Source of the DNA: Clostridia bacterium
GTDB taxonomy: Bacteria; Bacillota; Clostridia; Christensenellales; Maliibacteriaceae
Reading direction: 5' to 3'
Length of the DNA: 64,000 nt
NCBI GenBank assembly: GCA_017431145.1
Contig: JAFRLQ010000135.1
Location: 62,001-126,000 of the forward strand
A model generated the notes under the pieces. The model made no database searches, had not been told where the DNA came from, and was given only the letters and a program-made list of their open reading frames with translations. Both the position numbers and the translations under genes were made by a program. Below are positions 1 through 10,279 of this stretch, piece after piece (the stretch's first letter is position 1; the number at the start of each line of letters is the position of its first letter).

Positions 1-441
1 ATGTTCTGTAATATCTGCGGGACGAAAATCGAAGCTGCTGCGCCACAGCCTGCTCAGCCTGTCCCGCCTGTTCAGCCTGCAGCTCCTGTAGTCGATCCTT
101 ATGATCATACTGCTGACTTTGAACAGGATGATATTTCAAAAAACAAAGTTTTTGCCATGGGCGCTTATCTTCTTGACTGGATCGGTGTCATCATCGCAAT
201 GCTTGCAGCACCGAAATCTGAATATGCTGAATTCCACGCGAAACAAGCAATGAAGATTGCTGTATGCGAAACACTTTGCGGATTGGCAGCCGCTGTGCTG
301 TGCTGGACATTTATTGTTCCTGCCGCCGCGATCGTTGCTTTGGGAATCCTCTTTGTACTCCGTATTATCGCTTTCATCTCTGTCTGCTGTGGAAAAGCAA
401 AAGAGCCGGCGATCATCAAAAAGTTTGGTTTCTTCAAATAA
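1..441 (+). CDS. Zinc-ribbon membrane protein, 5'-truncated by window edge
   Basis: The visible 146 residues open with a CxxCG knuckle (C3, C6). In zinc-ribbon proteins this is usually the second half of a CxxC...CxxC pair, so the ATG at base 1 is probably internal and the true start lies before the window. A Pro/Ala/Gln-rich linker (about residues 13-32) leads to two or three hydrophobic segments (about 50-70, 85-108 and 110-130), giving a DUF4870-like layout with a cytoplasmic ribbon and a small membrane domain. No enzymatic motif is visible and the function is unknown. A strong hairpin terminator follows directly. Confidence 0.6.
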   Translation: MFCNICGTKIEAAAPQPAQPVPPVQPAAPVVDPYDHTADFEQDDISKNKVFAMGAYLLDWIGVIIAMLAAPKSEYAEFHAKQAMKIAVCETLCGLAAAVLCWTFIVPAAAIVALGILFVLRIIAFISVCCGKAKEPAIIKKFGFFK

Positions 442-456
442 TTGATTTTCTGCTAT

Positions 457-500
457 GACATTAATGAGTGAGATACTCACTCATTAATGTCTGTCTTTTT
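457..500 (+). terminator. Rho-independent terminator
   Basis: A perfect 16-bp inverted repeat (457-472 with 476-491) with a 3-nt loop is followed by a TGTCTTTTT tract. It ends the zinc-ribbon gene and separates it from the DeoB-like gene. Confidence 0.85.
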
Positions 501-511
501 CGGTAATCTTT

Positions 512-1672
512 ATGGAGAATCTGTTATTCCATCGTGTCTTTCTGTTCTCACTGAGCGGACTGGGTGCAGGCGCTATGCCGGACGCGAAACTGTACCACTG
601 CAGCAATGCAAATACGTTGCGTTCCCTTTTTCAGACCGGAAAACTCAGGATTGCTCAACTGCAGAGGTTGGGGATAGGCCAGATACAAGGCCTGTCTTTT
701 TTGGGTGGAAACAATTATTCTTCTTCCATCATTGCAAAAATTGCTCAGCGTTCCGAGGATAAGGACCGTGTCACCGGCTTAAACGAACTGCTCGGTATTA
801 TTTCAGCAAAGTCGAAACCTGTTTACACTGACGGACTTCCGAGTGAATTGATAGGGAAAATTGAGAATGCCGTTCAATACAAAACCATCGGCAATGTTCA
901 GTGCTCAAAGCTTGATGCTTTGACGGAATATGGTCTTCAGCATTGTGAAACAAAAGCACTCATACTTTTTACGTCTTCCGATGGTACTCTTTCCATCGCG
1001 GGACATATGTCCGTCATAAGTCCTAAACACTTGAATGAAACAGCAGAAATCATTCGCGACATCATGCACGAGAATCATGCCGTAGAGAATATTGTCTCAA
1101 TTCCTTTTGCGGGAAAATGGCCTTATTATACCATCGCTCCCGGAGGAGTGACGCTTTCCTATGACGCATATCAGCCTAATCTTCTTGATATTCTTTCTGC
1201 GCAGGGTTTTGATGTTTTCTCTGCCGATGCTTTTGCATCTGTTAATAACCGCTATGTATATCAGGATAGCCATTGTAGTCTAGACGATGCAATGCATTTT
1301 GCTTCTGATATGTCACTGAAAGCGTTTCACGGACTTTGCTTTGTTGCTTTTTCTGCTTTCGAGGAACGTTACGGACTGCAGCATAATGCAGACGGCTTTA
1401 CGCAGTGTCTGAACCGTTTTGATGATTGGCTTGCAACGTTTATACCGAATCTACAGTCAAACGACCTGATGATCATCACATCCGACGGCGGCTGCGACCC
1501 GAACAATACTTTTCTGAATGAGCGAACACGCGAATACGTTCCCGTTATTCTGTATGGCAAACGCACCGCACCTGCCAATCTCGGTGTACGCATCGGCACA
1601 TGCGATATCGCCGCAACAGTCGCCTCCTGTCTCGGAGCGAAATATGACTTAAATGGAACTTCAATGATTTAA
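512..1672 (+). CDS. Phosphopentomutase (DeoB)-fold protein lacking metal ligands
   Basis: 386 residues, the usual DeoB length, and collinear with phosphopentomutase (alkaline phosphatase superfamily) from end to end. The N-terminus RVFLFSLSGLGAGAMPDA, the cap region and the C-terminal ITSDGGCDP and RTREYVP motifs are recognisable. The catalytic positions are not kept. The first metal Asp is Ser15; the Asp and His of the VDFD...YGH motif are Ser281 and Leu289; SDHG has become SDGG (Asp325 kept, His to Gly326); and the His of TDHTREY is Arg338. The phospho-Thr region DTxTGHWE reads DRVTGLNE. The reading frame is intact, so this is probably a maintained non-catalytic or repurposed paralogue rather than an active mutase. 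The SD before the ATG is weak. It is followed closely by an esterase gene. Confidence 0.75.
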   Translation: MENLLFHRVFLFSLSGLGAGAMPDAKLYHCSNANTLRSLFQTGKLRIAQLQRLGIGQIQGLSFLGGNNYSSSIIAKIAQRSEDKDRVTGLNELLGIISAKSKPVYTDGLPSELIGKIENAVQYKTIGNVQCSKLDALTEYGLQHCETKALILFTSSDGTLSIAGHMSVISPKHLNETAEIIRDIMHENHAVENIVSIPFAGKWPYYTIAPGGVTLSYDAYQPNLLDILSAQGFDVFSADAFASVNNRYVYQDSHCSLDDAMHFASDMSLKAFHGLCFVAFSAFEERYGLQHNADGFTQCLNRFDDWLATFIPNLQSNDLMIITSDGGCDPNNTFLNERTREYVPVILYGKRTAPANLGVRIGTCDIAATVASCLGAKYDLNGTSMI

Positions 1673-1683
1673 AAGGAACAGCT

Positions 1684-2553
1684 ATGAAAGTAGAAAAACA
1701 TCTGATCAACGCATCTGACCGGTCATTCATGGTTTCATATGTAATCGATCGGTATACAGAATTCCAGTCTGAAAAACGAAGACGCGCTGTACTCGTGTGT
1801 CCCGGCGGAGGATACGAGTTCCTGAGCGACCGTGAGGGAGAGCCTGTTGCTTTGAAATTCGTTGCACAGGGATATAATGCTTTTCTGCTTCATTATTCCA
1901 CCGGTTCATCTGAACGCGGCAACGTGTTCCCTTACGCACTTTCAGACATTGCACATGCAATTGATTATCTGAAGACGAATGCAGATTCTTTTTCTATTGA
2001 CCCTGAAAAGATCATTCTGATTGGTTTTTCGGCCGGTGCGCATCTTTGTGCAAGTATGGGGAATATGGCAACGCATCCGGCATTGCAATCACTTGGATCA
2101 TTTCAGAATTCTCTGGATGTAGCTGCCGTTGTCCTTTGTTATCCGTGGATCAGTCTGGAGGCAATGTACCTTCGTCTCGCACAATGCGAATCGGGCTCTG
2201 AAACGCCTGTTTACTTCGAACACGCCAACATCAGTTTTTCCGGAGTGTCAGATCCATTTCATGAAGCACCGGATTACTACGATCCTGTTAAAACCGTTTC
2301 CGCCTCAACGCCTCCGACATTTATCTGGCATACTTCGAACGACGATCTGGTCTTTGTTGACTGTTCTTTAAAATATACATCAGCATTATCGGCCAATCAT
2401 GTTCCGTTTGAACTCCACATTTTTGAAAACGGGCATCACGGTCTTGCTCTGTGTGACAAAACTACAGAAAACAGAACTGTTGATTACAGGCCGGATCTTG
2501 TTTGCTGGCAGGATCTGATGTTCAAGTGGTTGGACGCGCATATCGAATACTAA
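1684..2553 (+). CDS. Alpha/beta hydrolase, acetyl-esterase-like
   Basis: 289 residues of the esterase/lipase group related to acetyl xylan esterases (COG0657). The oxyanion motif PGGGY is at about 40-44, the nucleophile elbow GFSAG carries Ser116, the likely acid is Asp220 or Asp221, and the His is in NGHHG (251/252). There is no signal peptide, so it is probably a cytoplasmic carbohydrate-ester or small-acyl esterase. The SD AAAGGAACAG precedes the ATG and the gene starts 11 bp after the DeoB-like gene, suggesting cotranscription. The substrate cannot be read from the sequence. Confidence 0.85.
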   Translation: MKVEKHLINASDRSFMVSYVIDRYTEFQSEKRRRAVLVCPGGGYEFLSDREGEPVALKFVAQGYNAFLLHYSTGSSERGNVFPYALSDIAHAIDYLKTNADSFSIDPEKIILIGFSAGAHLCASMGNMATHPALQSLGSFQNSLDVAAVVLCYPWISLEAMYLRLAQCESGSETPVYFEHANISFSGVSDPFHEAPDYYDPVKTVSASTPPTFIWHTSNDDLVFVDCSLKYTSALSANHVPFELHIFENGHHGLALCDKTTENRTVDYRPDLVCWQDLMFKWLDAHIEY

Positions 2554-9175: not shown

Positions 9176-10279
9176 ATGCGTCAGACATATGCAATCATCA
9201 AACCTTCTGTAATCGCCGATAACCTGAAAAACATCAAGCAGCATCTTAAAAAAGGTGTTCGGCTGATGGCAGTCATCAAAGCAGATGCATACGGTCACGG
9301 TGCCTCCAGTATTGCCCTCGAACTTGTTGCGGCCGGGGCAGATGCATTCGGAGTCGCCTCTATTGATGAGGCAGTTGAATTACGGCAGCTGGGTATCAGC
9401 ATTCCGATCCTGATCCTTGGAGCAACGGGTGCTGATGATGCTGTTGACGCTGTTCGCTATAACGTCTCGATGACAGTATGGTATCCTGCCCAGATAGAAG
9501 CAATCAGAGATGCATGTATCGCGGTAGGTAAAAAAGCCGCTGTACATCTGAAAATCGATACGGGAATGGGAAGATTGGGCGTTCGCACCGATAACGAGCT
9601 GATTGAAATGCTTCGTTCCATAGAGAAGACAAATGAAGTGGAACTTGAGGGTGTTTTTACGCATTTCGCGACTGCGGATGAAGCGGACAGCGCTTATTTC
9701 AGCAAACAGATCGCAAGGTTTCAGCAAGCTGTTTCGATCGTGCACAACCGCGGTTTTAATCCGCTGATTCATGCCGGAAACAGTGCTGTCACCCTGCATT
9801 TTCCCGAGTTGCACTTCGATATGGTGCGCCCCGGTTTTGCCTTGTACGGGTATGATCCCGGTCCTGATTCCGTGGATTACCTGCATCCTGCTATGCAGTG
9901 GGAATCGCGGATCGTCAACCTGAAATGGGTACAGGCGCATGAAGGCGTCAGTTACGGAGCAACTTATCATACTGATAAAGAAACATTGATCGCAACGGTC
10001 CCAGTCGGTTATGCGGATGGTTACAGACGTTCCATCGGCAATTCAGGATATGTACTTGTAAAAGGGAATAGAGCTCCCGTAATCGGAAGAGTTTGCATGG
10101 ATCAGATGATGATTGATGTAACAAACATCCCAGGAATTGAGCTCAATGACAAGGTCGTTCTGCTGGGCGAAATGGACAATGAAAGCATTACCGCCAATGA
10201 GATGGGTTCATGGCAGGATACAATCGGTTACGAAGTATTGTGTGCGGTCGGCAAACGAGTGCCACGATTCTATGAATGA
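9176..10279 (+). CDS. alr: Alanine racemase
   Basis: 367 residues, full length. A PLP enzyme making D-alanine for peptidoglycan. The PLP Lys is in VIKADAYGHG (Lys35), the second catalytic base Tyr is in the GVSYGATY segment of the C-terminal beta domain, and the VCMDQMMIDV motif is present. It starts 12 bp after iorB with only a weak SD, which suggests it rides on the iorAB transcript. A separate promoter follows its stop. Confidence 0.96.
   Translation: MRQTYAIIKPSVIADNLKNIKQHLKKGVRLMAVIKADAYGHGASSIALELVAAGADAFGVASIDEAVELRQLGISIPILILGATGADDAVDAVRYNVSMTVWYPAQIEAIRDACIAVGKKAAVHLKIDTGMGRLGVRTDNELIEMLRSIEKTNEVELEGVFTHFATADEADSAYFSKQIARFQQAVSIVHNRGFNPLIHAGNSAVTLHFPELHFDMVRPGFALYGYDPGPDSVDYLHPAMQWESRIVNLKWVQAHEGVSYGATYHTDKETLIATVPVGYADGYRRSIGNSGYVLVKGNRAPVIGRVCMDQMMIDVTNIPGIELNDKVVLLGEMDNESITANEMGSWQDTIGYEVLCAVGKRVPRFYE

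Follow-up and report, generated by a model that had tools for sequence, protein, structure and literature searches.

Does a gene that resembles phosphopentomutase (DeoB) along its whole length, and has lost most of the residues of the active site, still encode a maintained protein, and if so, of what kind? Phosphopentomutase, which acts in nucleoside salvage, is a housekeeping enzyme known from textbooks; annotation pipelines assign names to its homologues on the basis of similarity. The gene considered here lies in a 64,000-nucleotide stretch of a Clostridia bacterium contig (JAFRLQ010000135.1, positions 62,001 to 126,000; hereafter, the window). A first-pass annotation, made from the sequence alone, had described it as a full-length DeoB homologue without most of its metal ligands, and had judged a maintained pseudoenzyme likelier than a decaying gene. 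We find that a long-maintained pseudoenzyme is the best-supported reading, given the intact frame, the codon usage, and the predicted fold.

The open reading frame is real, intact, and homologous to DeoB from end to end. Residues 5–385 of its product align with residues 8–393 of the phosphopentomutase of B. cereus (PDB 3M8W, 3UN2, and 3UN5), an enzyme of the same length from the alkaline-phosphatase superfamily (PF01676). This bears out the earlier description of a full-length homologue with an unbroken frame; the product has 386 residues. The sole Pfam match of the protein is the Metalloenzyme superfamily. Its best NCBIfam families are the phosphopentomutase models, matched end to end, although both scores fall below the curated cut-offs (PRK05362, 233.9 bits against 256; TIGR01696, 196.8 bits against 341.2).

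The active site, in contrast to that of the DeoB enzyme, is largely gone. Ligand positions were read by comparison with the B. cereus structures and with 47 DeoBs from the order; the roles of ligands and pocket residues were assigned from PDB entry titles and background knowledge. The six dimetal ligands of DeoB (D13, D286, H291, D327, H328, and H339 in B. cereus numbering) align with S, E, L, D, G, and R, respectively. Four are lost outright, one is conservatively changed from Asp to Glu (Glu284), and one is kept (Asp325). The first-pass annotation had counted five of the six as replaced. Its Ser15, Leu289, Gly326, and Arg338 stand, as does its retained Asp325; Ser281, however, was misaligned, as it pairs with V283, while Glu284 pairs with D286 without a gap. 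It had also correctly read TGLNE for TGHWE, but had overlooked the phospho-acceptor itself. This residue is T85 of KD-T-MTGHWE, as indicated by T85Q and T85E variants and phosphorylated forms in the PDB, and it is Arg86 here (KD-R-VTGLNE). Further substitutions are H89L, W90N, R193N, R208I, and K240A, the last three at positions that are presumably substrate binding.

Across the order and class, more than 50 homologues keep the ligand, T85, and pocket positions almost without exception. Thus, the pattern of loss is neither chance nor alignment noise. We also considered whether an alternative alignment could rescue the ligands. The motif alignments are ungapped except for one residue inserted before Arg338, where the TREY motif anchors the register, and they leave no alternative ligands; we therefore rejected this possibility. 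Judged from the sequence, these losses make phosphopentomutase activity very unlikely.

The protein is nonetheless compatible with the DeoB fold. An AlphaFold2 model, built from an alignment with 47 DeoBs (pLDDT 89.1, pTM 0.84), is predicted to contain the DeoB fold with its cap domain, and Foldseek matches it to B. cereus phosphopentomutase over the entire chain (TM 0.89). Because the confidence of the model derives in part from the intact relatives in the alignment, this agreement speaks for compatibility and is not proof.

Table 1. Coordinates of the DeoB-like gene, its active-site codons, neighbouring features, and comparison genes. Positions without a locus prefix are those of the window.
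Feature	Position	Strand	Remarks
Zinc-ribbon/DUF4870-like membrane protein gene, 3' part	1..441	+	Neighbour conserved in sister species
Hairpin with T-rich tail, terminator of upstream gene	457..491	+	Perfect 16-bp stem, -23.2 kcal/mol, z -5.8
DeoB-like gene	512..1672	+	386 aa; intact; lacks the catalytic Thr and four of six metal ligands
Ser15 codon at ligand D13 position	554..556	+	Alignment
Arg86 codon at phospho-acceptor T85 position (KDRVTGLNE)	767..769	+	Alignment
Glu284 (ligand D286) to Leu289 (ligand H291)	1361..1378	+	Ungapped alignment
Asp325 (ligand D327, kept) and Gly326 (ligand H328)	1484..1489	+	Alignment
Arg338 codon at ligand H339 position	1523..1525	+	Alignment
Alpha/beta hydrolase esterase (BD-FAE / lp_1002-like)	1684..2553	+	11 bp downstream of DeoB-like gene
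Three-species pseudo-DeoB	L136:4001-5056, L135:4001-4969, L137:4001-4918; also L113:5306-6391, L114:6097-7032		L136 = G212, L137 = G142

Neutral decay is a poor match for what the gene has retained. We simulated such decay by mutating real deoB genes of relatives until their loss of invariant residues equalled that of the window protein. This required about 0.35 substitutions per site and produced a mean of 8.3–8.6 stops, frameshifts not counted. Not one of 2,015 runs (0/840 and 0/1,175) stayed free of stops, and the window gene has none. The hydrophobic core is 86% kept, against a neutral expectation of 74% and a simulated maximum of 88%. Conserved Gly and Pro residues are kept at 14 of 18 positions, whereas the remaining invariant residues are kept at 26 of 69; 0.4% of the neutral runs did as well. 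Codon usage is host-like and undegraded, with a synonymous codon use of 0.070 compared with 0.074 ± 0.026 for the other genes of the window and -0.079 ± 0.023 for random choice. Together, the absence of stops, the kept core, Gly, and Pro residues, and the host-like codons argue for selection on the frame during most of its divergence. Selection may have been relaxed recently; scaling of the simulation numbers would allow about 0.1 substitutions per site at most for such a phase.

Present function is called into question mainly by the upstream terminator and a weak ribosome-binding site. The terminator hairpin is an A+T-rich palindrome with a 3-base loop that ends 20 bp before the start codon; it is possibly an operator instead. 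No promoter-like site was found on the forward strand between it and the esterase gene. At -3.1 kcal/mol against a window median of -7.0, the ribosome-binding site is one of the weakest of the window genes. On this crude scale, 5 of 47 intact DeoBs are weaker still, which rules out the weak site as decisive proof of silence.

The esterase gene is probably co-transcribed with the DeoB-like gene here. It had been proposed as a pointer to the pathway of the protein, and in this respect it is weak. At the same locus in the sister species, the zinc-ribbon/DUF4870 gene is followed by the esterase, which has its own ribosome site, with no DeoB-like gene between them. Thus, the esterase is independent of the DeoB-like protein. 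We compared 20 neighbourhoods of the closest DeoBs: a clearly related esterase lies near deoB in one of them and a weak match in another, which rules out deoB and the esterase as a general conserved pair. In the clear case, from another member of the class (L115, G688:C83), the related esterase (9354-10184) adjoins deoC and an intact deoB. Also noted were a six-hairpin glycosidase resembling alpha-L-rhamnosidase, encoded upstream of the zinc-ribbon gene (L068:4987-6936), and, at 2592-2805 of the window, a pheST T-box leader with a terminator behind it (88.8 bits, slightly short of the Rfam gathering score of 93; E 3e-20).

The window protein stands apart from all DeoBs that we compared. A peptide-pattern scan of 84,980 genome species returned no orthologue, and about 790 genomes from the order and class yielded no homologue above 35% identity. 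The best matches, at 32–35% identity, are mostly DeoBs in operons of the deoC-deoD-deoB-cdd-pdp type. The DeoB of its own family, which lies beside dacF (G002), is only 27% identical. The branch leading to the window protein is extreme, at 5 changes per column against a median end branch of 0.42. We also considered a mobile origin and rejected it: phages and plasmids yield only ordinary DeoBs at 26–30% identity, and a pattern scan of viral contigs found none of the window type. Elsewhere, an otherwise normal DeoB (L027; G049:C51:9-1043) carries two ligand changes, D13 to Ala and H339 to Pro, which may stem from faulty sequencing or mark the onset of functional loss.

A separate intact deoB, searched for with the protein and with TIGR01696, was found neither in the same genome (90.8% complete, with about 9% missing) nor in that of the sister species (83% complete). 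Genes for purine nucleoside phosphorylase (C85) and deoC (C48) each stand alone, with no deoB after either. The ancestral deoB locus lies between a SpoIIM-like gene and dacF. In the sister species, these two genes follow each other directly, about 36 bp apart and with no deoB (L150/L146, G001:C203). This closed junction indicates that the loss of deoB from its ancestral place is real there.

A second pseudo-DeoB occurs in another genus. Among the weakest DeoB matches in the order are two proteins without catalytic residues, and a scan of named genomes added a third species; all three are uncultured Clostridia of one genus, different from that of the window. These genes (L135–L137) lie at the SpoIIM-like/dacF locus, between genes for a SpoIIM-like membrane protein, a weak assignment, and a DacF-like carboxypeptidase. 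The proteins have NGLG at D13, F, L, or Y at T85, GN(H/F)G at D327-H328, and I or L at H339. H291 is also lost, as is D327, which the window protein instead keeps as Asp325. The best-matching NCBIfam model for them remains phosphopentomutase, at a score well short of the cut-off, and the AlphaFold2 model is of moderate confidence (pLDDT 75). Two of the species share 53% identity with a dN of 0.39 and saturated dS, and hence are under purifying selection.

The two kinds of protein are alike in their derivation from DeoB, in keeping TREY, and in keeping largely the same structural positions. The sets of invariant positions that they keep match (15/19 versus 9/30, Fisher p = 0.0012), which suggests that DeoB scaffolds without an active site are also kept elsewhere. 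They have 14 derived residues in common, against 5.0 ± 2.1 expected. One member of L135–L137 shares Leu at H89 and Asn at W90 with the window protein; another shares Ser at V283 and Glu at D286. A tree groups the two kinds with support of 94/88, although this grouping unites long branches, so a common origin is no more than possible. Unlike the window protein, L135–L137 have a reduced cap domain and a lysine-rich C-terminal tail, occupy the SpoIIM-like/dacF locus, and are conserved in three species.

The main rival to a maintained protein is a recently silenced relic, which we consider rather unlikely. Under this explanation, the genus lost its need for phosphopentomutase. The gene first escaped the constraint of catalysis while selection was weak; the loss of its promoter and ribosome site would be recent, and it has yet to acquire a stop. 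The terminator and weak ribosome site directly upstream fit such a history, as do the absence of the DeoB-like gene from the sister species, the failure to find a canonical deoB in either genome of the genus, and the closed SpoIIM-like/dacF junction. However, about 8 stops would be expected at the observed loss, neutral evolution could account for only a small part of the divergence, and codon usage is not degraded at all. Any relaxation must therefore be recent. The earlier preference for a maintained pseudoenzyme over decay thus holds on stops, codon usage, and fold, and is tempered by this relic.

Other explanations fare worse. The first-pass annotation had also suggested an enzyme with a new mechanism. 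Such a protein would be an active member of the alkaline-phosphatase superfamily whose new, perhaps metal-free chemistry is carried out by other residues. The fold appears to be kept in the model, and the motif region still contains Glu284, Asp325, Cys328, and Asp329, but no replacement ligand set or nucleophile is recognisable, conserved pocket residues are lost, and without orthologues no new conserved site is demonstrable, so we regard this as improbable. It is harder still to believe in an ordinary active phosphopentomutase that draws its metal ligands from other residues. The protein is the only DeoB homologue found in a genome with deoC and purine nucleoside phosphorylase, yet the motif alignments leave no alternative ligands, T85 is Arg, and R193, R208, and K240 are lost. 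Least credible is an assembly or binning artefact of foreign or chimeric DNA; the draft genome comprises 148 contigs and shows 3.5% contamination, but the contig spans 281 kb, pheS (76%), pheT (62%), and the flanking genes follow the same order as in the sister species, and codon usage is that of the host.

The window gene is probably a lineage-specific pseudoenzyme derived from DeoB. Its ancestor was most probably a catalytic DeoB of the nucleoside-catabolism (deoC-deoD-deoB-cdd-pdp) kind. Catalysis would have been lost and the protein then kept for a non-catalytic role, retaining the DeoB fold without binding two Mn ions, without phosphorylation of Thr85, and without the residues that hold the sugar phosphate. 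Arg86 and Arg338 may occupy the places of the metals, where salt bridges to Glu284 and Asp325 could stabilise a metal-free site. The role might be scaffolding or regulation by protein contact; our confidence in any partner is low, and the esterase is only a candidate. The sugar-phosphate sensor of the first-pass annotation is not supported, as the putative sugar-phosphate-holding residues R193, R208, and K240 are gone, which makes a ribose-phosphate sensor unlikely. In keeping fold and gene after the loss of catalytic residues, the window protein resembles pseudoenzymes in general, such as pseudokinases and pseudophosphatases. A partial literature search found no description of a DeoB pseudoenzyme. 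We suggest, much more tentatively, that clostridial DeoB may have given rise to a non-catalytic family, with at least one branch (the three species at the SpoIIM-like/dacF locus) under purifying selection. The window protein would then be a full-length member with the cap kept and arginines in place of the two metals.

If true, the retention of a DeoB scaffold without its active site would represent a new class of pseudoenzyme. It would also be a warning against inferring nucleoside catabolism from DeoB-like genes. The window protein would gain in interest should a relationship to the three-species branch be borne out. Furthermore, that conserved branch at the SpoIIM-like/dacF locus raises the testable question of whether DeoB ever had another role, a structural one, next to the sporulation genes that are its classical neighbours.
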